A stretch of DNA of 23,108 nt from Chloroflexota bacterium (GTDB lineage Bacteria > Chloroflexota > Dehalococcoidia > UBA3495). Of the stretch, positions 743 to 15,960 are shown piece by piece; within the stretch, counting starts at the first letter, position 1; each line of letters starts with the position of its first letter. Under the pieces are notes generated by a model that was not told the origin of the DNA, did no database searches, and worked only from the letters and a program-made list of their open reading frames with translations. The DNA lies in assembly GCA_022563275.1 (NCBI GenBank), contig JADFNR010000052.1, positions 1 through 23,108 of the forward strand, read 5' to 3'. The position numbers and the translations under genes are program-made.

Positions 743-1429
743 CTAGAGCTCGAAATCCTTAAGGTCCGGAGATATGGTCAATGTGGCCCCGGTCAGTTGC
801 TGCACCTCTTCAGGTGTCCAACCCGGGGCCACTTCTTTCAACGTCAAGCCATGGCCGTCGCACTCGATCACCGCCAGATCGGTGACGATGAGGTAGACGC
901 ACCCCTTCCCGGTCAGCGGGAAGGTGCATTCTTCCACTATCTTGGGGTCGCCGTTGCGGTCGGTATGCTCCATGGCGACGATGACCCCTCTGGCCCCGGT
1001 GGCCAGGTCCATGGCTCCGCCCACGTTGCCCACGCCCCTTTGGGGCAGCATCCAGTTGGCCAGGTCTCCGGTGGCCGACACCTGGTGGGAACCCAGGACC
1101 GTGACATCGACATGGCCGCCCCTGATCATGGCGAAGGCCTCCGCCGAATCGAAGAACGACATCCCGCCAACTCTTTGCAGGTACTGGCCTCCGGCGTTGA
1201 TCAGGTCGATGTCCTCTTCCCCCTCATCCCCCGGTTCGACGACGGGCCCGCAGTTCAGGATTCCGCTTTCGCTGTGGTAGAAGACGGTCCGTCCCTCGGG
1301 CAAAAAGCTGGACACCATGGTGGGGATACCGATGCCCAGGTTCACGTACGCGCCGTCGGGCAGCTCTTTGGCAACCCGCATGGCGACGATCTCTCTCGTA
1401 AGGCGCTCTTTACCGGCTAGCGATGTCAT
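743..1429 (-). CDS. 3-oxoacid CoA-transferase, subunit B
   Basis: A 228-residue family I CoA-transferase B subunit (ScoB/AtoA/PcaJ/CatJ type), which moves CoA from a donor such as succinyl-CoA to a carboxylic or 3-oxo acid through a glutamyl-CoA thioester. The N-terminal NLGIGIPT glycine loop and the catalytic motif YHSESGIL, with Glu54 as the expected nucleophile, are intact; the GGAMDLATGAR and VAPGWTPEEV segments also fit. Length is normal for a free B subunit. It is the last gene of a three-gene minus-strand set, 44 bases after a fused B'-A' gene. An A subunit is needed; either the free A at 2890 or the fused A' half could supply it. Substrate is unknown, so no specific symbol is given. 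Confidence 0.9.
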   Translation of the reverse strand: MTSLAGKERLTREIVAMRVAKELPDGAYVNLGIGIPTMVSSFLPEGRTVFYHSESGILNCGPVVEPGDEGEEDIDLINAGGQYLQRVGGMSFFDSAEAFAMIRGGHVDVTVLGSHQVSATGDLANWMLPQRGVGNVGGAMDLATGARGVIVAMEHTDRNGDPKIVEECTFPLTGKGCVYLIVTDLAVIECDGHGLTLKEVAPGWTPEEVQQLTGATLTISPDLKDFEL

Positions 1430-1473
1430 CGGCAGGACCTATTATTAGGATCAAATTTCGGTTCGAATTCTAG

Positions 1474-2868
1474 TCACAGATAGGCGGAAAAATCCGGTGG
1501 CCGGAGGACGATGCGGTCGATGAATAGGCCGGGGGTGACGATCTCTTCGGGGCCCAGCCGGCCCGGTTCCACGATCTCGTCCACCTCCACCACCGTTATC
1601 TTGGCGGTGGTGGCCATCACCGGGTTGAAGTTCCGGGAGGTGCCCTTATAGACCACGTTGCCCAGGGTGTCGGCCTTGTGGCCCCGGATGATGCAGAAAT
1701 CGGCCCGCAGCCCCATCTCCAAGATGTGCTCTTTGCCGTCAATGGTCCTAGCTTCTTTGCCTTCGGCCAGCAGAGTGCCCGCCCCGGTGGGGGTGTAGAA
1801 GGCCGCCACCCCGGCCCCTCCGCAGCGGAGCCGCTCGGCCAGGGTCCCCTGGGGCACCACTTCCAGTTCCGTTTCACCCCGGTTGTAGGCCTCCTCGAAG
1901 GCGCTGGGCCGGGAGGCCGAAGGGGAGACCGGGTAGGAAGCCGTGGCCTTGGCGACCTGGTTGTTCTCCACCAGGATGCTGTGGTCGATGATATTGGGCG
2001 ACCCGAAGCCGCTCACCCGGGCGACCCCAGCCGTATTGCTGATGAGCTTTAAACCTTTGACGCCCAGGTCGCGCAGTCCAACCATGAGGTAGTGGGCCAT
2101 CCCGCCGGGGCCGGCGAAGCCGTCAACGTTGATCACCGAGCCTTCGGGCACGTCCTTGAGGGCTTCCAACGCGCTTGGGTAGACCTTATTAAGCGGTTTC
2201 AGGGTTGGCGCCTGGAAGGTCATCTCTTTCACGCCGGATGAGACCGTCAGCGGCGCATCCGTGATGGCCACGATCTCTTCGGCGGTCCAACCGGGCGCAA
2301 CCTCGACCAGTTCCAAGCCGCCGGGGCCGACGCTCATCACCGCCGCGTCGGTGATGATCATGTCTATCTGCCCAACCCCGTCCACCGGCAAGCTGCACCG
2401 CGAAACGATATTGGGACGGCCTTCCGGGCTTTGATGGAGCATGAGCGCCACCACCCTCGATGCGCCGTAGGCCATGTCCACCGCCGGGCCGGGGGCGAAT
2501 AACCCCTGGGTGGCCGCGGTCGTCCAGTGCACGAAATCTCCGTCGGCGGCTACTTGGGCCGGTTGCAAGAACGCAATATCGGTGTGTCCGCCCCGGAGGA
2601 TGGCGGCGGTCTCCACCACGCCGGTGAAGGCGCCCCCGGACAGCAGAGCAACGGTATTACCCTCCGCGTCAACGGCGCCGGCGTCTGGTTCCAGACCTCG
2701 AATGCCTACGACACCGCTATCAGCGAGAAACCAAACGCCGCCATGGGAAGAAAATTCTCCGGGCAGGCGGCAAGGCAATCCCGGACCCAGGGCAACGACC
2801 GCTCCAGGAAACAGCTCCTGGGCGGCGCGGCGTGCCATGGCGGTTGGGTCTAACGGCGTACTCGACAT
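1474..2868 (-). CDS. Fused CoA-transferase, domain order B'-A', altered active site
   Basis: A 464-residue fusion. Residues 1 to about 220 resemble the B subunit (GGHTDIAFL, VDMAYGASRVV, VAPGWTAEEIV); about 228-464 resemble the A subunit (VYPSALEAL, RLRCGGAGVAAFYTPTGAGT, AEGKEARTIDGK, DTLGNVVYKGTSRNFNP, TPGLFIDRIVL). The usual fused enzyme (mitochondrial SCOT) is A then B, so this order is reversed. In the B' half the position of the catalytic Glu (HSESG in the neighbour) reads LADSG, with Asp50 instead, and the LGIGIP loop is changed to LGPGLP. The A' half also departs at its first glycine motif (GFAGPGGMAHY instead of GxxGxPENL). It lies 21 bases after the A gene and 44 before the B gene, in one apparent operon. 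It may be a catalytically altered or structural partner. Confidence 0.85.
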   Translation of the reverse strand: MSSTPLDPTAMARRAAQELFPGAVVALGPGLPCRLPGEFSSHGGVWFLADSGVVGIRGLEPDAGAVDAEGNTVALLSGGAFTGVVETAAILRGGHTDIAFLQPAQVAADGDFVHWTTAATQGLFAPGPAVDMAYGASRVVALMLHQSPEGRPNIVSRCSLPVDGVGQIDMIITDAAVMSVGPGGLELVEVAPGWTAEEIVAITDAPLTVSSGVKEMTFQAPTLKPLNKVYPSALEALKDVPEGSVINVDGFAGPGGMAHYLMVGLRDLGVKGLKLISNTAGVARVSGFGSPNIIDHSILVENNQVAKATASYPVSPSASRPSAFEEAYNRGETELEVVPQGTLAERLRCGGAGVAAFYTPTGAGTLLAEGKEARTIDGKEHILEMGLRADFCIIRGHKADTLGNVVYKGTSRNFNPVMATTAKITVVEVDEIVEPGRLGPEEIVTPGLFIDRIVLRPPDFSAYL

Positions 2869-2889
2869 CTTAAAAATAATCTCCTGCGG

Positions 2890-3591
2890 TTAGGCGGCCA
2901 GGACCAAACGGTCGATAAATATGGCCGGGGTGATGACCGTTTCCGGGTCTATCCCGCCCGGCTCGAGTACCTGGTCAACCTCGGCCACCGTGACCGCGGC
3001 GGCCATGGCCATGGTGGGGTTCCAATTGCGGCCGGTCCCCTGATACACCATGTTGCCCAGGGTATCGGCGGTCTGGGCCTTGAGCAGAGCAAGATCGGCC
3101 TTCAGAGCGGATTCCAAGACGTGGTCCTTGCCATCGAACCGGCGCACCTCTTTGCCCTCGGCGAACCTGGTGCCCGCGCCGGTTGGCAGGAAAACGCCGC
3201 CGATGCCTGCGCCACCCGCCCGGAGCCGCTCGGCCAAGACACCCTGGGGGACTATCTGAAGTTCCAACTTGCCCGACTCCCACAGGTCTTTCACCGGACC
3301 GCCGGCCTCGGGATGAAACGGCAGGGGCGAGATCATCTTTTTTACCTGTCCACCCGCAACCAGATCGGCCACTCCGAACCTGCCTGGTTCCTGGAACCAT
3401 GCCCCTTGGCAGATCAGGGTCAATTCTGAAACCCCGGTCTCGGCCAGCCCACGCAGCAGATTCTCAGGTACACCGCGCCCGGCGAACCCGGCGACCAGCA
3501 CAGATGCGCCATCGACGATGCCCTCCAGGGCCGCTAGGGCCGAGGGGTAGAGCTTGCCCTGCCGGGGAGAGTTGTCGGGAACTCCGGTCAT
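2890..3591 (-). CDS. 3-oxoacid CoA-transferase, subunit A
   Basis: A 233-residue family I CoA-transferase A subunit (ScoA/AtoD/PcaI type). Visible are KLYPSALAAL, VAGFAGRGVPENLLRGL (the CoA-binding glycine loop followed by PENL), RLRAGGAGIGGVFLPTGAGT, AEGKEVRRFDGKDHVLE, DTLGNMVYQGTGRNWNP and a C-terminal TPAIFIDRLVLAA. It is the first gene of the minus-strand operon, behind a promoter at 3639-3667. The ATG at 3591 has no good Shine-Dalgarno. It probably forms a heterotetramer with the B subunit at 743; the role of the intervening fusion is unclear. Confidence 0.9.
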   Translation of the reverse strand: MTGVPDNSPRQGKLYPSALAALEGIVDGASVLVAGFAGRGVPENLLRGLAETGVSELTLICQGAWFQEPGRFGVADLVAGGQVKKMISPLPFHPEAGGPVKDLWESGKLELQIVPQGVLAERLRAGGAGIGGVFLPTGAGTRFAEGKEVRRFDGKDHVLESALKADLALLKAQTADTLGNMVYQGTGRNWNPTMAMAAAVTVAEVDQVLEPGGIDPETVITPAIFIDRLVLAA

Positions 3592-3693: not shown

Positions 3694-3727
3694 AAAAAGC
3701 CGCCCCGTGTTTAGCGGGGCGGCTTTT
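3694..3727 (-). terminator. Strong intrinsic terminator after groEL
   Basis: A perfect 10-bp GC-rich stem (AGCCGCCCCG at 3698-3707 with CGGGGCGGCT at 3715-3724) has a 7-nt loop. On the minus strand it ends in five T, the layout of a Rho-independent terminator, about 32 bases past the groEL stop. T residues also follow on the plus strand, so it may work both ways. Confidence 0.92.
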
Positions 3728-3758: not shown

Positions 3759-5408
<1,650 letters not shown>

Positions 5409-5872: not shown

Positions 5873-5988
5873 GATTGACATGTCCGGCCTAGTATTTAGG
5901 GGTTGTTTCAAGGACGAATTTTAGCTTGTTTTCTTGATTCTGAACTGCCCGGAATCATCTGGGCGAGGGAATCCAACCGGATTTCCAG

Positions 5989-5994
5989 AGGAGG
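5989..5994 (+). promoter_or_regulatory. Shine-Dalgarno in front of an ATC codon
   Basis: A perfect AGGAGG ends seven bases before ATC at 6002-6004. This ATC is in frame with the crotonase that follows. No ATG, GTG or TTG lies at a comparable distance. The TTG at 5903 has its only purine run directly abutting it, and the GTG at 6047 has no Shine-Dalgarno. The site therefore points to ATC as start, or to a mutated or miscalled ATG. Confidence 0.6.
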
Positions 5995-6001
5995 AACCGG
6001 C

Positions 6002-6805
6002 ATCGCCATCGATCCGAAAAACGCAGGGCCCAAAACCATAGGGCCCGTGATTCTCGAGGTTAGCGCAACCGTGGCCACCATCACCCTGGACCGGCCAGAT
6101 AACGGCAACCGGATAGACGCGGAGATGGCCGACGCCTTGGGCGAAGCCTGCCGCGTGATCGCGGAGAACGACCACCTGCAGCTGGTGGTCCTGACCGCCA
6201 CCGGCGCCGTCTTTTCTATCGATGAAGAGAATGAAACAGCCGAACGGCCGGGGATGGGAAGCGACACTCCCAGAAAACCCGGCGCGCCGGCGCAGGTGGC
6301 GGGGTTGGCGGTCCCGGTTTTGGTGGCGTTGAACGGCGACGCCACCGGGTCCGGCTTGGAGCTGGCCCTGGCAGGAGACCTGCGTGTCTGTGTGCCATCC
6401 GCCCGGTTCGGATTCACCGGGTTGGCGCGGGGCGTGCTCCCCCAAGACGGCGGCACCCAACGGTTGCCCCGGCTGGTGGGGCCGGCCTGGGCCCGGGACA
6501 TGCTGCTCACGGGCCGCATGGTGGACGCCAACGAAGCCCTATCTATTGGATTAGTGAACCGGGTGACAGAACAGCCTGGCGGATTGGCCGCCGCGGTGGC
6601 TGAACTTACTGCGCACATCACCGAGGGGAGTCCCATCGGGGCCCGCTACGCCAAGGAGGCGGTCGGCAAGGGGATGGACCTGACCCTGGACCAGGGTTTG
6701 AGACTGGAGGCCGATCTGAACGTTATACTGCATTCCACATCGGACAGGGCCGAGGGGATCAAGTCCTTCCTGGAGAAACGGGACCCCGAGTTTACCGGGT
6801 CTTAA
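6002..6805 (+). CDS. Enoyl-CoA hydratase/isomerase-family protein, catalytic residues altered
   Basis: A crotonase-fold protein of about 267 residues counted from the ATC at 6002, a normal family length; the open frame extends back to TTG 5903. The fold is clear: VATITLDRPDNGN, GSGLELALAGDLRV, GVLPQDGGTQRLPRLVG, MLLTGRMVDANEALSIGLVNRV. The first acid (Glu144 of rat hydratase) is kept as Glu120. The second (Glu164) aligns without gaps to Gly140, in FGFTGLARG where hydratases have a PE pair. The usual FCAGAD oxyanion loop is replaced by VFSIDEENE. Simple syn-hydration is therefore doubtful; isomerase, hydrolase, lyase or non-enzymatic roles are open. It leads a plus-strand operon, 37 bases before a PHP-domain gene, and diverges from groES. 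Confidence 0.85.
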   Translation: MAIDPKNAGPKTIGPVILEVSATVATITLDRPDNGNRIDAEMADALGEACRVIAENDHLQLVVLTATGAVFSIDEENETAERPGMGSDTPRKPGAPAQVAGLAVPVLVALNGDATGSGLELALAGDLRVCVPSARFGFTGLARGVLPQDGGTQRLPRLVGPAWARDMLLTGRMVDANEALSIGLVNRVTEQPGGLAAAVAELTAHITEGSPIGARYAKEAVGKGMDLTLDQGLRLEADLNVILHSTSDRAEGIKSFLEKRDPEFTGS

Positions 6806-6842
6806 AGATGGACCCCGTTACTGGCATGAAAAAGGAATCCCT

Positions 6843-7388
6843 GTGAAGCTAAAACTGGACCTCCACACCCATGTATGGGAGGCCTTCAATTTCGCGCCGC
6901 CGTCCGTGGAGACCGCGGAAAAAGTGGTTAACCAGATCAAGTCCAAGGGCATCGACGGCATCGGCATCACCGACCACCACAATAAGGAGTGGGCCTTCGA
7001 GTTCCGCGAACTGGTGGAGAAACACTTTCCCGGACAGGTGCATATCCTGCCGGGCTGGGAGATAGAGGTCCGGCCCGAAGCCAACCCCTTCGCCGAGTAC
7101 CAGGTGGCCGAGCTTTTCCTGCCCAACGGCGGCGGTGTCTTCCGCACCTACTGCCACCCGGGCTATTATTCCCCCGAGATCCTGATCGAGCCGGATATCC
7201 ACGCCATAGAGATCGACAACTACATCCACAACTGGCACATCCGGAAGGACCAGGTGGCGGAGGTCGCCTTGGAACACAACCTGATGCTGATAGAAGTGAG
7301 CGACGCCCACAACCTGGAGAATATAGGTCTCCGCTACACCGAAGTGGAACTGGACGACCTCTACGCCAGGGCCGTCCCACGGGATTAA
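6843..7388 (+). CDS. PHP-domain metal-dependent hydrolase
   Basis: A 181-residue stand-alone PHP domain, a family of metal-dependent phosphoesterases and related hydrolases. The expected metal ligands are visible in order: DLHTH (His8, His10), ITDHHN (Asp44, His45), PGWEIEV (Glu73 or Glu75), YCHPG (His105) and VSDAH (Asp154, His156). The start is GTG at 6843, with AAGGA six bases upstream. It lies between two crotonase genes, with 37 bases before it and 8 after it, so it is probably co-transcribed and perhaps translationally coupled to the second crotonase. The substrate cannot be predicted. Histidinol phosphatase or polymerase-associated roles are not suggested by the neighbours. Confidence 0.85.
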   Translation: MKLKLDLHTHVWEAFNFAPPSVETAEKVVNQIKSKGIDGIGITDHHNKEWAFEFRELVEKHFPGQVHILPGWEIEVRPEANPFAEYQVAELFLPNGGGVFRTYCHPGYYSPEILIEPDIHAIEIDNYIHNWHIRKDQVAEVALEHNLMLIEVSDAHNLENIGLRYTEVELDDLYARAVPRD

Positions 7389-7396
7389 CAGTCCAC

Positions 7397-8137
7397 ATGT
7401 CCACTTCAGCCAGGTCCACTAAAGGCGCCTTCGAGACCCTGCTGTTCCAGAAGCGCGGCGCCGTGGCCCATATCTCGTTGGACCGTCCCCAGGTGGCGAA
7501 CGCCTATAACATGCAGATGAGGGATGATTTTTCCGAGGCGTTATCGGCCGTCCGGGAGGACCCTGACGTCCGTTCGTTATTGATCACTGGCGAGGGCCGG
7601 GGGTTCTGCGCCGGCGCGGACCTGACCGAGTTCGGCGCCGCCCCTTCGCAAGTCGTCGCCCGGCAAGTGCGTTGGGAACGGGACGTTTGGGGGCAACTGT
7701 TAAACTTGGACAAACCCGTCGTCGCCGCGGTGCACGGTTATTGCATCGGCTCCGGCCTGGAGATCGCCCTCCTGTGCGACCTGAGGATCGCCGCCACCGG
7801 CACGGTGTTCGCCCTGCCGGAGGTCCGATTGGGGATGATTCCGGCCGCCGGCGGCACGCAGACTCTGCCCAGGACGGTGGGCCGGTCCCGGGCGCTGGAC
7901 CTGCTGTTGACGGGCCGGCGCATCCAGCCGGAAGAGGCCCTTTCCATGGGCTTGGTGACCCGCCTGACCTCGCCGGAGTCACTTCGAGATGAGGCATGGC
8001 GGTTGGCGTACAGCCTGGCCGAATTGCCCGCCAAGGCGGTTGCGGCATTGAAACAATTATTGCGCCAGGGGATGGACCTAGACCTACCCCAAGCGTTGGA
8101 CCTGGAGGGCCGCGTTGCGGCCGGGTTGGCCGGTTAA
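7397..8137 (+). CDS. Enoyl-CoA hydratase, catalytic residues intact
   Basis: A 246-residue crotonase expected to hydrate trans-2-enoyl-CoA to 3-hydroxyacyl-CoA. The oxyanion motif GFCAGADL (about 69-76), YCIGSGLE with Glu122 and FALPEVRLGMIPAAGGTQ with Glu142 are all present; these two match rat Glu144 and Glu164. The start is ATG 7397. The frame is open much further upstream, but that part overlaps the PHP gene and is not crotonase-like. The start lies eight bases after the PHP stop and has no strong Shine-Dalgarno, which suggests coupling. It is the active-looking counterpart of the altered crotonase at 6002. Substrate specificity is unknown. Confidence 0.93.
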   Translation: MSTSARSTKGAFETLLFQKRGAVAHISLDRPQVANAYNMQMRDDFSEALSAVREDPDVRSLLITGEGRGFCAGADLTEFGAAPSQVVARQVRWERDVWGQLLNLDKPVVAAVHGYCIGSGLEIALLCDLRIAATGTVFALPEVRLGMIPAAGGTQTLPRTVGRSRALDLLLTGRRIQPEEALSMGLVTRLTSPESLRDEAWRLAYSLAELPAKAVAALKQLLRQGMDLDLPQALDLEGRVAAGLAG

Positions 8138-8167
8138 CCAAGAGAGCGGGCAAGTGAGAACAGATAG

Positions 8168-9739
8168 ATGAACACTTTCGAATTTTTGACCATCGCTGGG
8201 GCCATCGTTCCCGACCGGCCCGCAGTCATATTCGACGGCCAGAGCATCACCTTTGAAGGGCTGGCTGAGCGGGTCAACCGGCTGGCCAACGGACTCTCCG
8301 GGATGGGAGTCGGCCCCGGAGACCGGGTGGCCACCATGCAGGTCAACACCAACCAGTGCATCGAGGCCTATTTCGCCGCGGCACAACTGGACGCGATCTA
8401 CGTGCCGATAAACTTCCGGGCCAAAAGCGATGAACTGGCACAGATGCTGAACATCGTCGAGCCCTCCTGTCTGCTCATCGGCGAGCGGTATCTGCCGATG
8501 GTCAGCGAGGGCAGCATCCCTCCGGAAAGGGTTATCGTTCTGGACGGGGCGGTTGACGGAGGACCCGGCGGCCACCCAAGTTACGACGCCCTGCTGGCCG
8601 GAGGGTCTCCGGACCAGATGCACTTCCCGGAGGCCGGTGACGAAGACACCGCGGTGATCATGTTCACCGCCGGCACCACCGGGGTGCCCAAGGGCGTGAT
8701 GCTGACCCATGACAGCTTTTCCTCCTATCTGCTGGCCACCGTGGATCCCGCGGACCCGGACGTGGAAGAGCGCAACCTGATCAGCGTGCCCTTCTACCAC
8801 ATCGCCGGACTCCAGGCCGCCTTGGCCGCGGTCTACGGCGGGCGGACCTTGGTGGTGATGCGGCAGTTTGAGCCGGGGGAGTGGCTGCGGCTGGTCCAAG
8901 AGAACCGGGCCAACCGGGCCATGTTGGTGCCGACCATGTTGAAACACGTCATGGCGCACCCAGATTTCTCCGATTACGACCTATCGTCTCTCAGTGTCAT
9001 CACCTACGGAGCAGCCCCCATGCCCCTGGAGGTGATCCGTGAGGCCATCGAACGATTCCCCGGCGCACGGTTCATCAACGCCTTCGGCCAGACCGAGACC
9101 GCTTCAACCATCACCATGCTGCCGCCGGATGACCACGTGATGGAAGGCAGCCCGGAAGAGATCGAGACGAAACTCAAGCGGCTGACGTCGATCGGAAAAC
9201 CGTTGGAAGATGTTGAAGTGGAGATCGTGGATGAATCCGGGCAGGCCGTGGCAGTGGGTGAGACCGGCGAGATAGTGGCCCGGGGCTCCCGCATGATGGC
9301 CGGTTACTGGCAGGAGGAATCGGCCACCCGCGACACGATGCGCGGCGGTTGGATCTACACCGGGGACCTGGGTTACCAGGACCAAGACGGCTATATCTAC
9401 CTGTCGGGCCGGGCCAAGGACTTCATCAAGCGGGGCGGAGAGATGATCTCCCCCGAAGAGGTGGAGCGGGTGCTCCGTTCCCATCCTGAATTGGATGACG
9501 CGGCGGTGATCGGCGTGCCCGACGTGGAATGGGGCGAAGAAGTACGGGCCGTCGTGGTGGGCCGCTCCGACCGGGTCACCGAGGAGCAGGTCATCGAATT
9601 CTGCCGGGAAAAGCTGGCCGGATACAAGCGGCCCCGTTCGGTGGTTTTTGTCAGGGAACTGCCCCGCAATGCGATGGGCAAGGTGCTGAAACGTGACCTG
9701 CGGGATGAGTACAGTTATCCGGTGGAAAACCGGGGTTAA
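8168..9739 (+). CDS. AMP-forming acyl-CoA synthetase / ligase
   Basis: A 523-residue ANL-superfamily adenylating enzyme that activates a carboxylic acid to acyl-AMP and then acyl-CoA. Motifs are complete: TAGTTGVPKG phosphate loop (about 167-176), YGAAPMP (280-286), FGQTE (306-310), YTGDLG (397-402), the hinge GRAKDFIKRGGEMISPEEVE (414-433) and the C-terminal catalytic lysine in NAMGK (Lys505). Overall it resembles FadD/CaiC-like ligases for fatty, aromatic or other organic acids; the chain preference cannot be told. It follows the crotonase by 30 bases and would supply its CoA thioester. The Shine-Dalgarno is weak. Confidence 0.93.
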   Translation: MNTFEFLTIAGAIVPDRPAVIFDGQSITFEGLAERVNRLANGLSGMGVGPGDRVATMQVNTNQCIEAYFAAAQLDAIYVPINFRAKSDELAQMLNIVEPSCLLIGERYLPMVSEGSIPPERVIVLDGAVDGGPGGHPSYDALLAGGSPDQMHFPEAGDEDTAVIMFTAGTTGVPKGVMLTHDSFSSYLLATVDPADPDVEERNLISVPFYHIAGLQAALAAVYGGRTLVVMRQFEPGEWLRLVQENRANRAMLVPTMLKHVMAHPDFSDYDLSSLSVITYGAAPMPLEVIREAIERFPGARFINAFGQTETASTITMLPPDDHVMEGSPEEIETKLKRLTSIGKPLEDVEVEIVDESGQAVAVGETGEIVARGSRMMAGYWQEESATRDTMRGGWIYTGDLGYQDQDGYIYLSGRAKDFIKRGGEMISPEEVERVLRSHPELDDAAVIGVPDVEWGEEVRAVVVGRSDRVTEEQVIEFCREKLAGYKRPRSVVFVRELPRNAMGKVLKRDLRDEYSYPVENRG

Positions 9740-11198: not shown

Positions 11199-12845
11199 TT
11201 GAATACAATTGAAGCCATAACCGAGATTCTCAAGCGGGAAGGTGTCCAGTTCCTTCCCTGCTTTCCCACTACCCCGGTGATCGAAGCGGCCGCTCTTGGC
11301 GGCATCAGGCCCATCGTCTGCCGCCAAGAGCGGGTCGGCGTGGGCATCGCCGACGGCATCAGCCGTGTCACCAACGGCGATCAGATGGGCGTGTTCGCCA
11401 TGCAGTACGGCCCTGGGGCCGAGAACGCCTACGCCGGGATCGCCACCGCCTACTCCGACTCAGTCCCGCTCCTGCTGCTGCCCTTGGGCCACCCCAGGTC
11501 GCGGGCCGGCATATCGCCCCACTTCAGCGGTCTCAAGAGCTTTGAAGATGTCACCAAGGGCATCGAGCAGGTGAACGCCCCGGACCGCACCTCAGATATC
11601 ATGCGCCGTGCCTTTGCCGGACTGCGCCAGGGCCGCGGCGGCCCCATGGCCGTTGAGATTCCCGCCGACGTCGCCCTGGAGGACGTCAGCGAGGAGTCCT
11701 TCTACTATGTGCCCAGCAGGCCGGTCGCCTCCCAGGGCAACCCCAGCGACATCGAAGCGGCCGCCAAGGCCCTGTGCGCCGCCCATTTTCCGGTGATCAT
11801 GGCCGGTCAGGGCGTGCTCTACGGCAAGGCATCCGGCGAACTGGTGGAACTGGCTGAACTGCTCCAGGTCCCCGTATGCAGCACCCTGCTTGGCAAGAGC
11901 TCCTTTCCCGAGGTCCATCCCCTGGCTTTGGGCAGCACCGGCCCCACCATGTCGGGACACGCCTATCATTTCGTGCGCCGGGCCGATCTCATCTTCGGCG
12001 TCGGCACCAGTTTCACGAAGCACGGTATGTGCATGAACATACCTCCGGGCAAGACCGTGATTCACGCCACCAACGACGCATCCGACATCAACAAGGACTA
12101 CAACGTAGACTTTCCCATCGTGGGCGACGCCAAGCTGGTCCTGCGCCAGATGATCGAGGCCTGCCGGGCGATCGCCGGTGACAGCCGGAAGGACGACCAG
12201 TCCACCGCCAAAGAGGTGCAGTCGGAACGGGAAGGGTGGCTGTCCCAGTGGCGGGCCAAGCTCTCCGACAACTCAACCCCCATGACCCCCTACCGGGTGA
12301 TCTGGGATTTCATGCACACTATCCCGCCGGAAGACGCCATCGTGACCCACGACTCGGGCAGTCCCCGGGACCAGATAACCCCCTTCTACCGGTCCAACGG
12401 CCCCCGGACCTATCTGGGCTGGGGCAAGTCCCACGGCCTGGGCACGGGCTTGGGCCTGACAATCGGCGCCAAGCTGGCGGCCCCCGAGAAGGTCTGCGTT
12501 AACTTCATGGGCGACGCCGCCTTCGGCATGGTCGGGCTGGACTTCGAGACCGCCGTCCGCAGCGGCATCCCCATCATCACCGTGGTGTTGAACAACTCCA
12601 CCATGGCCATCGAGACCCAATCAATGACCGACTCCCACGGGCTCTACGGCACCCGGGACCTGGGCGGCAACTACGCCGACCTGGGCAAGGCCATGGGCGG
12701 CTACGCCGAACGCGTCGAAGACCCCAGCCAGATCAGCGCCGCCTTCGCCAGGGCCCGCAAGGTCACCGAGGAAGAGGGCAAGGCCGTTTTGCTGGAGTTC
12801 ATAACCAACGAGGAGACTGAATTTTCTCACCGGCGGGCTTTCTAG
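11199..12845 (+). CDS. Thiamine-diphosphate-dependent enzyme (acetolactate synthase / oxalyl-CoA decarboxylase superfamily)
   Basis: A 548-residue ThDP enzyme with the three-domain layout of this superfamily. The pyrimidine-binding domain carries CRQERVGVG with the probable activating Glu44. A central domain follows. The C-terminal domain has the ThDP/metal motif from GDAAF (438-442) to NN (465-466). The stretch GDAAFGMVGLDFET resembles the GDSAFGFSGxExET form I recall from oxalyl-CoA decarboxylase and 2-hydroxyacyl-CoA lyase, so a CoA-thioester substrate is plausible given two CaiB genes downstream. It could equally be an acetolactate-synthase-like carboligase or decarboxylase. The start is TTG 11199, with AGGAGG eight bases upstream. 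It is followed after 39 bases by a small EthD-like gene. Confidence 0.88.
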   Translation: MNTIEAITEILKREGVQFLPCFPTTPVIEAAALGGIRPIVCRQERVGVGIADGISRVTNGDQMGVFAMQYGPGAENAYAGIATAYSDSVPLLLLPLGHPRSRAGISPHFSGLKSFEDVTKGIEQVNAPDRTSDIMRRAFAGLRQGRGGPMAVEIPADVALEDVSEESFYYVPSRPVASQGNPSDIEAAAKALCAAHFPVIMAGQGVLYGKASGELVELAELLQVPVCSTLLGKSSFPEVHPLALGSTGPTMSGHAYHFVRRADLIFGVGTSFTKHGMCMNIPPGKTVIHATNDASDINKDYNVDFPIVGDAKLVLRQMIEACRAIAGDSRKDDQSTAKEVQSEREGWLSQWRAKLSDNSTPMTPYRVIWDFMHTIPPEDAIVTHDSGSPRDQITPFYRSNGPRTYLGWGKSHGLGTGLGLTIGAKLAAPEKVCVNFMGDAAFGMVGLDFETAVRSGIPIITVVLNNSTMAIETQSMTDSHGLYGTRDLGGNYADLGKAMGGYAERVEDPSQISAAFARARKVTEEEGKAVLLEFITNEETEFSHRRAF

Positions 12846-12884
12846 ACCCTCGACTTAACAACCTAATAATCAAGGAGGCTGGTC

Positions 12885-13247
12885 ATGGCCCAAAAATCGA
12901 AGTACCTCTTCATCGCGAGTATGGACGTCGACCCAGCAAAAGAGGCCCTGTTCCACGAGGTCTACAACACCGAGCATTGCCCGGAGTTGGGCAAGCTTGC
13001 CGGAGTAGGCGCCATCACCCGGTTCGAAGCCCAGGCCTTTCAGGTCCTCATCGGAGGGCAGACCCAGACCATCTCGCCGGAGGGCCAGCCCCGTTTCCAC
13101 GCCATGTACGAGATCGAGAGCCCGGAGATCCTCAGCTCTCCCGAATGGGGCGCCGCCGTGGAACTGGGCCGCTGGCCGGAGCAGGTCCGGCCCTACACCA
13201 CCAACCGGCGGCACACCCTGCTGCGGCTGACCTATCCCGAGGAGTAG
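12885..13247 (+). CDS. Small dimeric alpha/beta-barrel (EthD-like) protein
   Basis: A 120-residue protein with the look of ferredoxin-like dimeric alpha-beta barrel families such as EthD: an opening strand YLFIASMDV, a helix with EVYNTEHCPELGKLAGV (the N..H.P.L..GV pattern), then RFEA and a C-terminal strand. Some members are monooxygenases or help in ring or ketone chemistry, others have no known function; no catalytic claim is made. AAGGAGG lies seven bases before the ATG. It sits 39 bases after the ThDP-enzyme gene, so it is probably an accessory protein of the same pathway. Confidence 0.7.
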   Translation: MAQKSKYLFIASMDVDPAKEALFHEVYNTEHCPELGKLAGVGAITRFEAQAFQVLIGGQTQTISPEGQPRFHAMYEIESPEILSSPEWGAAVELGRWPEQVRPYTTNRRHTLLRLTYPEE

Positions 13248-13302
13248 GCCGCGCGGGCCGAATTCAAATTGGATCCGCCACAAGCCGCGACGCTTAAAAC
13301 AC

Positions 13303-13311
13303 TGTTATTAT
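13303..13311 (+). promoter_or_regulatory. Possible extended -10 promoter before the first CaiB gene
   Basis: TGTTATTAT fits TGn plus a 5/6 -10 hexamer. It lies in the only long gap (146 bases) inside the ThDP/CaiB cluster, just before a hairpin repeat that would form part of the leader. No clear -35. Confidence 0.35.
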
Positions 13312-13324
13312 CGGCGTAACAGCA

Positions 13325-13360
13325 TAGGGGCACGGACCCGATAGAATCGGGATGCCCCTA
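13325..13360. repeat. Nested hairpin repeat upstream of the first CaiB gene
   Basis: Outer arms TAGGGGCA (13325-13332) and TGCCCCTA (13353-13360) enclose an inner hairpin CCCGAT-AGA-ATCGGG (13337-13351). The core CGATAGAATCGG is identical to 10866-10877. In the mRNA this hairpin would end about 20 bases before the Shine-Dalgarno AGGAGA (13382-13387). Confidence 0.75.
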
Positions 13361-13393
13361 CAAATGCCGCCACGTCTATCTAGGAGACGCCCT

Positions 13394-14593
13394 TTGACTG
13401 AACGCGCCCTGGAAGGGGTGAAGGTCTTGGACCTCACCCACCACATCGCCGGACCATACTGCACTAAATTGATGGCCGACTTCGGCGCCGAAGTCCTCAA
13501 GGTCGAGCGGCCCGGCGGTGACCCGGCCCGGCGGATGGCGCCATTCCTCCACGACGAAGCCGACCCGGAAAAAAGCCTGGTCTTCGCCTATTTGAACACC
13601 AACAAGCAGAGCGTGACGCTGAACCTGAAATCCGAGAAGGGTATCCAGGTGCTCAAGTCATTGGTGGAAGATTCGGACGTTCTGGTGGAGAATTTCGCCC
13701 CCAAAGTCATGCCGTCCCTGGGATTGGACTTCGAAACTCTCCAACAGATCAACCCCAGTCTAGTCATGACCTCGATCTCCAATTTCGGGCAGACCGGGCC
13801 CTACCGGGACTACAAGGCCGCCGACATCGTCGAATATGCATTGGGCGGGCTGATGTATATCTTCGGGGCCTACGACCGGGAACCTCTGAAGCACGCATTT
13901 AATCAAGCCCAGTTCAAGGCTGGGACCGACGCCGCCTCCGCCACCCTCATGGCCACCTATCACCAGCGGCTCACCGGGGAGGGACAGAGGGTCGATGTCT
14001 CCATCCAGGAAGCGGTGGCCACCGGCCTCAGGGACGTGGTCAACAATTTCACCTACACCGGCGCGGTCCGCCGCCGCCAGCCCAACCACAGCGGCGACCT
14101 CACCCGCATGCGGGCCAGCGCCGACGGCCACTTCTTGCCGAATCCGGGTATGGGCGCCGGGCTAAACTGGGACAACGTGGTGGATTTCCTGGGTCTCCCC
14201 GAGCTTGACGACGAGAAGTTCAACACCCCCTCGGCCCGGCTGGCCAATGCCGAAGAACTGGGCCGGATATTGGACGAGTATTTCATCAAGCAGAACAAAT
14301 ACGACATCTTCTACGCCTCCCACAAGAGGCGGTTCATCTTTGGCGTGGTCCAGTCGCCTGAGGAAGTCATGGCCGACCCGCAGTTCCAGGCCAGAAATTA
14401 CTTCGTCGATATCGACCACCCGGCATTGGGGACCCTGAAGTATCCCGGCGCTCCCTTCGAGATGAGCGCCACCCCATGGGAGGCCCGCAGCCCCGCCCCA
14501 ACCCTGGGCGAGCACAACCAGGAAGTCATCGGCCAACGGCTGGGCCACACCCCTGAACAACTGGCCCAGATGCGCGCCATGCAAATTATCTAA
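13394..14593 (+). CDS. Class III (CaiB/BaiF) CoA-transferase, catalytic Asp apparently replaced
   Basis: A 399-residue CaiB/BaiF-family protein; relatives move CoA between carboxylates (formyl-CoA:oxalate, carnitine, benzylsuccinate, malate). Typical segments are LEGVKVLDLTHHIAGPYCTKLMADFGAEVLKVE-like (shown here in part), NTNKQSVTLNLKSEKG, DVLVENFAP, ISNFGQTGPYRDY and TGEGQRVDVSIQEA. The catalytic Asp169 of formyl-CoA transferase normally stands in a DxxxG motif 18 residues before the TG of TGxGQ. Here the aligned residue is Gln173 (QFKAG), while the next gene keeps Asp. The start is TTG 13394, chosen because AGGAGA lies six bases upstream; an upstream ATG at 13352 lies inside a repeat hairpin. 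It is 20 bases before its paralogue. Confidence 0.88.
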   Translation: MTERALEGVKVLDLTHHIAGPYCTKLMADFGAEVLKVERPGGDPARRMAPFLHDEADPEKSLVFAYLNTNKQSVTLNLKSEKGIQVLKSLVEDSDVLVENFAPKVMPSLGLDFETLQQINPSLVMTSISNFGQTGPYRDYKAADIVEYALGGLMYIFGAYDREPLKHAFNQAQFKAGTDAASATLMATYHQRLTGEGQRVDVSIQEAVATGLRDVVNNFTYTGAVRRRQPNHSGDLTRMRASADGHFLPNPGMGAGLNWDNVVDFLGLPELDDEKFNTPSARLANAEELGRILDEYFIKQNKYDIFYASHKRRFIFGVVQSPEEVMADPQFQARNYFVDIDHPALGTLKYPGAPFEMSATPWEARSPAPTLGEHNQEVIGQRLGHTPEQLAQMRAMQII

Positions 14594-14613
14594 GACCGGA
14601 GAAATACTGAAGC

Positions 14614-15960
14614 ATGTCAGGTCCTTTGGCAGGCATCCGCATAATCGAGATGGGCCAACTCATCGCCATCCCCTTCGCCATGAAGCTGCTGGCCGACATG
14701 GGAGCCCAGGTCATCCGCCTGGAGTCCACCGGCCGGCTGGAGAGCTACCGCGCCGACTCTGTCTACCAGAACGACGTTTCCGGCGAGTTTTGGAACAAGG
14801 GCGCTAATTTCTACGAGCAGAACCGCAACAAACTGGGCATCACCCTGGACCTGACCAAACCAGAGGGCCTCCAGGTCCTTCGCGAGCTCATCGCCGTCGC
14901 CGATGTGTTCTCCGAGAATTTCACCCCCAGGGTGATCAAAAACTTTGGGCTGGAGTACGAGGACCTAAAAAAGATAAAGCCGGACATCATAATGGTGTCG
15001 TCCACCGGCTACGGGTTCTACGGCCCGTGGGCCAATTTCGGGGCCACCGGCCCGGCCACGGAAGGCGCGGCGGGGCTGGCCTACCAGACCGGCTACCTGG
15101 GAGGGCCGCCGGTGATGGCCGAGATACCCTACACCGATTACACCTCAGGCGAGCACACGGTTTTCGCCGTGATGGCCGCTCTGATGCACCGGCTGCGCAC
15201 CGGCCAGGGCCAGTTCGTGGACATATCCCAGACCCAGGCCACCAGCGCCACCATCCCCGAAGTCTTGATGGACTACTCGGCCAACGGGCGCTCCGGACAG
15301 CGCATGGGCAATCAGGACACCGCCATGTCGCCCCACGGCTGCTATCCGTGCCGGGGAGACGACCGCTGGCTCACCATGGCCGTCGCCACCGACGACGAAT
15401 GGCAAGCAGTTTGCCGGGTGTTGGGACAGGAAGGATGGGCCGCCGACCCCAGGTTCGAGGACTCGCTAAGCCGTTGGAAGAACCGGGACGAACTGGACGC
15501 CCTGATCGGGCCGGTGACCAGCCCATGGGACGCCCATGAGTTGATGCACGCGCTGCAGAAAGAGGGAGTGGCCGCCGGAGCGGTCTTGGACAGCAAGGAC
15601 CTGCTCTTTGACCCCCATCTGAATGAGCGGGAATTCTACGAGGTAGTCACCCACCACGACAGCACCGGAATCCCGCCATTGCCCTACGCCGGCCGCCCCT
15701 GGAAGTTGTCGAAAACCCCGGCCGTCAAGGGCAAGGCCGCCCCTCTGATGGGAGAGCACAATGCGCTGGTCCTCTCAGACCTATTGGGCAAGACCGCCGG
15801 CGAACTGGCGGCCCTGGAAGAGGCGGGCATCATCGGCTACGGCCCCACCAACCCCCGCCCCGTGCAACGCCCGTCCCTAGACGAACAGGTGCGCCAAGGC
15901 CGGATGCAGCGCTACGAGACAGACTTTGAGGAACAGGTCAGAAGGGCGTTTCCGGGGTAG
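14614..15960 (+). CDS. Class III (CaiB/BaiF) CoA-transferase, catalytic Asp present
   Basis: A 448-residue CaiB/BaiF protein. N-terminal GPLAGIRIIEMGQLIAIPF and ADMGAQVIRLE, then NRNKLGITLDL, VFSENFTPRV, STGYGFYGPW and TGQGQFVDIS are family hallmarks. The expected catalytic aspartate is Asp175 in TDYTSG, 18 residues before the TG of TGQGQ. The protein is longer than its neighbour; the last 40 or so residues form a charged, Gln/Arg-rich extension. It lies 20 bases after the first CaiB gene. Two-subunit class III enzymes are known (BbsEF; SmtAB of Chloroflexus), so the pair may form one heteromeric transferase. No strong Shine-Dalgarno precedes the ATG, consistent with coupling. Substrate unknown. 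Confidence 0.9.
   Translation: MSGPLAGIRIIEMGQLIAIPFAMKLLADMGAQVIRLESTGRLESYRADSVYQNDVSGEFWNKGANFYEQNRNKLGITLDLTKPEGLQVLRELIAVADVFSENFTPRVIKNFGLEYEDLKKIKPDIIMVSSTGYGFYGPWANFGATGPATEGAAGLAYQTGYLGGPPVMAEIPYTDYTSGEHTVFAVMAALMHRLRTGQGQFVDISQTQATSATIPEVLMDYSANGRSGQRMGNQDTAMSPHGCYPCRGDDRWLTMAVATDDEWQAVCRVLGQEGWAADPRFEDSLSRWKNRDELDALIGPVTSPWDAHELMHALQKEGVAAGAVLDSKDLLFDPHLNEREFYEVVTHHDSTGIPPLPYAGRPWKLSKTPAVKGKAAPLMGEHNALVLSDLLGKTAGELAALEEAGIIGYGPTNPRPVQRPSLDEQVRQGRMQRYETDFEEQVRRAFPG

Follow-up and report, generated by a model that had tools for sequence, protein, structure and literature searches.

We analyzed a 23,108-nucleotide stretch from a Chloroflexota bacterium (Dehalococcoidia; contig JADFNR010000052.1, positions 1 to 23,108), hereafter the window, in which three neighboring minus-strand genes would supply all four domains of a single class I (family 1) CoA-transferase (CoA, coenzyme A) of the 3-oxoacid type: a free alpha subunit A, a fusion of a beta domain to an alpha domain (B'A') and a free beta subunit B. 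Our data suggest, with a probability of about 0.6, that the products form one class I CoA-transferase complex, derived from a fused tandem, in which a live A'/B site is combined with a retained dead or impaired A/B' half. The preliminary description of this DNA had taken the outer A and B as canonical and the inner pair as divergent. Domain alignments reversed this assignment: as aligned, inner A' and outer B make up the canonical pair, and outer A and fused B' the altered one.

The three open reading frames (ORFs) lie as that description had placed them, closely spaced on the minus strand: A at 2890-3591 (233 aa), B'A' at 1474-2868 (464 aa) and B at 743-1429 (228 aa), with gaps of 21 nt between A and B'A' and 44 nt between B'A' and B. 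It had also proposed a domain order opposite to that of mitochondrial SCOT, and the fusion indeed reads beta-alpha, with B' at about residues 1-222 (2203-2868, minus strand) and A' at about residues 223-464 (1477-2202, minus strand). The CoA_trans family PF01144 (Pfam) was detected in A, in B and in each half of the fusion. A and A' both exceeded the cut-off of the NCBIfam subunit A model TIGR02429 (A' scored 230 against a cut-off of 128.5) and B exceeded that of the subunit B model TIGR02428 (285 bits against 243.55), whereas B' fell below the same curated cut-off with 142.4 bits. The A'/B pair has the alpha and beta PF01144 domains expected of a class I CoA-transferase. In a single-chain model of the fusion, the beta and alpha halves were both predicted to adopt CoA-transferase folds; the best PDB matches of both halves were class I heteromeric CoA-transferases, with AibA/AibB and IpdAB also among the fold matches. 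Judging by family membership, the substrate would be a 3-oxoacid such as acetoacetate. Among 230 B'A' proteins, which are the matches listed from two protein searches (120 of 171 and 120 of 557 listed) and include fragments, the domain order was B-A in 228, B-A-B in one and B-A-A in one, a 277-aa fragment. The B-A-B protein, P0121 (698 aa), is a candidate further fusion of free B to B'A', represented by this one member; free B rows were only 44-57% identical to it, a value that we take to reflect alignment to B' rather than to the C-terminal B. Database names for the fusion are few, most being '3-oxoacid CoA-transferase subunit A' and some subunit B or both. A sequencing error as the origin of the fusion was rejected, as the same B'A' fusion is found in 12 further genome records (L001-L010, L012 and L013).

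For T. melanesiensis CtfAB, Glu46 and Asn22 of the beta subunit and Phe24, Asn50 and Gln98 of the alpha subunit are named as key residues (PMC12400318), and the external oxyanion hole of class I enzymes is described as using a backbone glycine, Gly388 in AarC (PMC4876117). Seven positions were read from our domain alignments, F, N and Q in alpha domains and N, E, G and G in beta domains, and a domain was called altered when at least one of them was changed. The two glycines are those of the GGAMD loop, to which we assign the oxyanion glycine of class I enzymes. For the signature PS01723, the column read sits one residue ahead of its last Pro, so that this Pro was unscored. In the window, A' keeps F251, N278 and Q340, and B keeps N30, Glu54 and G137-G138. 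Free A has the canonical F36 and Q116, its sole change being Gln62 at the Asn position. B' lacks the catalytic Glu/Asn/Gly-Gly set: Asp50 (codon 2719-2721, minus strand) aligns with the catalytic glutamate E46 of T. melanesiensis CtfB, Ala26 stands at the Asn position, and Gly127-Pro128 replaces the two glycines, with Pro at the second oxyanion-loop Gly.

This division holds across related loci. In a table of 46 distinct loci, from which four duplicates (L188, L189, L190 and L198) had been removed and in which B' of L011 was too short to score, the substrate residues F/N/Q of A' were intact in 46 of 46 loci and the catalytic residues N/E/G/G of B in 45 of 45, whereas only 3 of 43 free A subunits and 5 of 45 B' domains were intact; in the divergent B' domains of L218, L219 and L220 the residue columns may be misaligned. 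Among the 42 loci scored for both A and B', both were intact in 3, both were altered in 39, and no mixed state was found. A fourth intact pair occurs in genome G788 (L213), where B' is intact and the translation of a distant A shows F, N and Q all retained. Comparison domains from other loci were nearly invariant, with F in 69, N in 70 and Q in 71 of 71 A domains, and E in 64, N in 65 and both Gly in 65 of 65 B domains; this comparison leaves aside L046-L080 and the twice-fetched loci L081, L082, L090, L095 and L107. The 230 listed proteins gave the same picture, with F/N/Q of A' present in 224 and a fully intact B' in 34. Their B' nucleophile position was occupied by E in 113, D in 82, A in 8, N in 6, G in 4, S in 3, V in 2, Q in 2, R in 1 and T in 1, with a gap in 8.

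From these patterns we infer an assembly in which the A/B' half is inactive and has a structural or regulatory role. A tandem A-B-A-B arrangement would have fused across its middle, joining B' to A', after which the first pair, A and B', would have lost its canonical residues jointly while the second, A' and B, stayed fully canonical. The products would form a single (alpha-beta)2-like assembly whose sole working ping-pong site, with the transfer expected to pass via a glutamyl-CoA thioester, lies at the A'/B interface, with Glu54 of B (codon 1268-1270, minus strand) as the predicted nucleophile. The A/B' half, catalytically dead or impaired, would persist owing to the covalent link between its B' and the active A', and would serve as a second protomer for folding, stability or allosteric control. 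Since A changes with B' and A' remains intact with B, the catalytic interfaces are probably A/B' and A'/B, the fusion linking the altered half to the live one; the two domains of the fusion thus probably belong to different catalytic pairs and would not make a self-contained active unit. A, B'A' and B together supply two alpha and two beta domains, the same number as in the CtfAB heterotetramer. The joint alteration of A and B' and the retention of all four domains favor one mixed complex over two enzymes, the two options that the preliminary description had raised. In T. melanesiensis, the CtfB E46D substitution abolished the transferase reaction and left partial hydrolysis (PMC12400318). In window B', the hydrolase-like state of that variant, an Asp with the rest of the site intact, is absent, as Asp50 is accompanied by Ala26 and Pro128. 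Since the Asn and Gly positions are lost besides the nucleophile, little or no activity would be expected of A/B'. We put slightly below even odds the fuller picture of an asymmetric, covalently cross-tied transferase in an order of Chloroflexota, whose dead pair has survived as a scaffold for the live pair or as its allosteric partner, each step being represented by extant relatives (unfused tandem, fused with two intact sites, fused and half-dead); alternatively, the decayed half may have an unrelated function.

A and B' evolve faster than A' and B. Among ten close loci, mean amino-acid identity was highest in B (0.925) and A' (0.888) and lower in A (0.742) and B' (0.670). The ratio of nonsynonymous to synonymous substitution rates (dN/dS) between the window and L002 was about 0.21 for A, 0.19 for B', 0.055 for A' and 0.10 for B, and between the window and L001 it was 0.19, 0.17, 0.07 and 0.07, respectively; these values are quoted for close pairs only, since many synonymous rates in wider comparisons were high or saturated. 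With dN/dS of about 0.2, A and B' are not neutral: they are constrained by purifying selection, unlike pseudogenes. Such selection also agrees with the view that A/B' has been repurposed for other CoA-ester chemistry beside the A'/B transferase, for example as a hydrolase with Asp50 as general base, a lyase or a decarboxylase. Glu-to-Asp variants of class I CoA-transferases act as hydrolases (PMC12400318), the same-fold decarboxylase AibA/AibB has a Cys replacing the Glu (PMC7756340), and AibA/AibB and IpdAB appear among the fold matches above. However, D occupies the nucleophile position in only 82 of the 230 listed proteins, while 27 have one of A, N, G, S, V, Q, R and T there; the Asn and the second oxyanion-loop Gly are each gone in 23 of 24 B' rows; and 20 residue states different from F/N/Q occur in free A across 43 loci. 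The seven positions read show no common new set of residues in place of the old one, and we regard repurposing as unlikely.

To follow the cluster beyond the window, genome contigs were scanned for related loci, and the best 80 of 556 relatives were kept. Homologues with the same three-gene order, for which the preliminary description had proposed a search, were present in the best 13 of these 80, with record titles naming the SAR202 cluster, Dehalococcoidia or Chloroflexi. Gene A lies upstream in 12 of the 13, and L010 stops at a contig edge; the remaining 67 of the 80 show an ordinary A-B pair or a single visible gene of such a pair. In L011 (2560-3000), an in-frame stop codon and a brief N run disrupt the B' part of the fusion, through either decay or an assembly fault. 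In one Dehalococcoidia-related order, that of one of the relatives, the fusion was found in 40 of 197 genomes (E 1e-100). A sample of the class gave an unbroken match across both halves in at least 2 of 393 genomes, among the matches listed; in a further genome, G145, the match spans two adjacent genes with a stop between them. A sample of the phylum, queried with the relative P0069 at E 1e-100, gave the fusion in the centre genome alone (1 of 400), and both the class and phylum samples include the centre genome.

From the order sample, 35 fused loci were fetched, four of which repeat the first set. A was the next CoA_trans gene upstream in 33 of the 35, and B the next one downstream in 34; the gaps between the genes reach about 1.1 kb. 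Three loci depart from this: G788 (L213 with L221), where a free A lies 11 kb off on the other strand, G745 (L219 with L222), where a canonical beta gene is far away, and L209, where the contig ends inside an alpha gene. The parts of the cluster can thus be separated, as in G788 and G745. Because A and B are neighbors in nearly all 35 loci, and the exceptions have the part elsewhere or a contig end, the four domains are kept as a set. In G002, a genome of unstated completeness, the only PF01144 matches found were the four of this locus. Of the first 15 loci, 14 (the window, L001-L009, L011-L013 and L116) have groEL immediately upstream, L010 being cut, as do 19 of the 35 order-sample loci, so that the genomic place is shared by much of the family but not by all of it. 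In L116, an ORF at 6888-7881 lies between the fusion and gene B; it carries a metal motif that is presumably metallo-beta-lactamase-like. None of the titles and opening abstract lines of the papers listed by our literature searches describes the A + B'A' + B arrangement.

The preliminary description had explained the locus by tandem duplication of an A-B pair followed by fusion of the inner genes, and had suggested separate trees of A, A', B and B'. These were built by quick searches, which missed better trees for B and contain long branches such as A of L013; they omit L046-L080, L081, L082, L090, L095 and L107 and include ten of 120 listed database fusions. An unfused A-B-A'-B cluster is present in L111. 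By the Shimodaira-Hasegawa-like approximate likelihood ratio test (SH-aLRT), its first A joins the free-A lineage (94), its second A falls in a 35-row set with fused A' and nine ordinary A (92), and its second B falls in a 24-row set with free B of the cluster loci and some ordinary B (97). A tree joining its first B to fused B' was not rejected and had a better score than the free search. The free trees do not show A and A' as sisters, yet constraints placing A with A' (approximately unbiased (AU) test, p 0.40) or B with B' (AU p 0.76) were not rejected. Thus, the copies of L111 sort with free A, A' and free B as a tandem stage predicts, and the trees allow A and A', and likewise B and B', to be sisters or not. 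A local duplication is compatible with these trees but may be old, and the tandem history is plausible, now with a living intermediate. As side observations, a pair of alpha genes precedes a single beta gene (A-A-B) in L112 (3116-5225) and L114 (3657-5890), an order resembling a tandem cluster without its first beta, and L115 (3582-6515) has two SCOT-like alpha-beta fusion genes (502 and 474 aa) in tandem without a gap, a different double CoA-transferase.

In a quick rooted tree of A', a group of 28 rows of fusions, in which all scored rows but one have an intact B', is the sister of a 196-row group, 144 rows of which form a clade without an intact B' among the scorable rows. The 28-row group includes P0122, which is 98% identical to L013 over the part searched. 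This tree (LG+G4) requires at least 20 changes between Glu and non-Glu and, for the intact state of B', at least 6. The simplest order of events suggested by these trees would start from tandem pairs, which were then fused, and the first pair would have decayed repeatedly afterwards. The position of intact-B' fusions, as the sister group and near outgroups of the larger set, indicates that fusion preceded most decay, and together with the many decay routes and the persistence of all four domains it would also suit a constructive neutral ratchet, in which the dead half brings no benefit and is kept for folding alone by the fusion and an obligate tetramer interface. Free A, however, is not covalently held and was nevertheless found, or partly found, wherever the sequence allowed. 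The ratchet is in effect a sub-case of the favored explanation, sequence cannot distinguish it from an allosteric role, and we rate it somewhat lower than repurposing. It is very improbable that free A and free B form one transferase and B'A' another by itself, even though each such pair has one alpha and one beta and the fusion alone holds both domains, because an altered A would be paired with an intact B, and an altered B' with an intact A', leaving each enzyme half a canonical site, and because the neighbors A-B and A'-B of the unfused locus correspond after fusion to A with B' and A' with B.

Several observations weigh against a single complex with one dead half. Free A in the window keeps F and Q, and Asn to Gln is the only change in 7 of 43 free A, a mild alteration. 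Loss of the nucleophile is not universal, as Glu is retained in B' of 113 of the 230 listed proteins, and five intact B' proteins lie inside the otherwise altered 196-row part of the A' tree. The scored loci share kinship, for which reason a Fisher test on their A and B' states does not give a true probability, and the both-intact loci are few and related, so that the perfect match between A and B' may reflect few events. The model of the fusion is moderate (mean predicted local distance difference test score (pLDDT) 71.9, predicted template modeling score (pTM) 0.72, five segments below 50) and silent on assembly. T. melanesiensis CtfAB showed several oligomer states. Distance correlations given GroEL, across 11 loci, were 0.86 for A'-B, 0.78 for A-A', 0.77 for A-B', 0.67 for B'-A', 0.62 for A-B and 0.51 for B'-B; as A-A' is as high as A-B', the pairs are not cleanly separated, and among eight close loci A'-B reached only 0.07, against 0.72 for A-B' and 0.64 for A-A'. 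Owing to these two features, the fit of the correlations to A'/B and A/B' pairing is suggestive only.

In domains, residues and fold, A'/B resembles the class I heteromeric enzymes CtfAB, AtoDA and ScoAB. Enzymes of this class function as alpha-beta units, and crystals of T. melanesiensis CtfAB contain a heterotetramer of two AB heterodimers. Unlike two identical AB pairs, the present system has four distinct domains on three chains, with one of two sites altered and a beta-alpha fusion. Mitochondrial SCOT likewise fuses one alpha and one beta domain, but in SCOT the order is alpha-beta and both are catalytic, whereas here the order is beta-alpha and the beta domain is altered, so that the fusion is not of SCOT type. 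AibA/AibB and IpdAB use the CoA-transferase fold for other chemistry, AibB with Cys for Glu (PMC7756340). IpdAB opens rings and lacks the Glu. Each is a stand-alone enzyme with chemistry of its own and has no live transferase pair coupled to it. The trypanosomatid deoxyhypusine synthase offers a parallel for live and dead paralogues: the two form a heterotetramer and activity rises 3000-fold (PMC3663545), so that a dead partner can be essential. The fold and chemistry differ, however, and in the present system the halves are tied by gene fusion.

Between groEL (3759-5387, minus strand) and gene A lies a terminator-like inverted repeat of 14 pairs (3695-3727, no strand assigned). Terminator-like sites in the region number 5, against a mean of 3.1 (standard deviation 1.6) in shuffled sequences, and this stem is the longest. 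Given the stem and the short gaps, A, B'A' and B may form their own transcription unit. On the plus strand, 5903-9739 contains two enoyl-CoA hydratase-like genes, of which the first was analyzed with Pfam, together with an acyl-CoA ligase-like gene and a small gene with a PHP domain; these adjoin the cluster in many of the first related loci. Further along the same strand, 11199-15960 encodes a thiamine pyrophosphate-dependent enzyme, a small ORF that matches no Pfam family and two consecutive CoA-transferases of family III (CaiB type); the group may be a catabolic operon of the oxalyl-CoA or formyl-CoA type.

These results describe a real, conserved variant of class I CoA-transferase, in which a fusion of reversed order couples a live pair with one that is altered and probably dead. 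The name '3-oxoacid CoA-transferase subunit A' misses the N-terminal half of the fusion, an altered subunit B. Catalytically dead subunits may be kept by organisms for regulation, for assembly or through a neutral ratchet. In the present case, one cluster holds both the live and the altered half of an enzyme that is small and well assayed, and relatives preserve unfused, fused-intact and half-altered states; if our interpretation is true, the origin of a pseudoenzyme partner would be traceable in extant species. SAR202 is described as an abundant dark-ocean clade in a study that stresses its CoA-transferases, chiefly of the unrelated CaiB/BaiF family (PMC5395668). The Chloroflexota that carry the cluster include ocean SAR202 members, which would offer a natural test of why dead parts of enzymes are retained.

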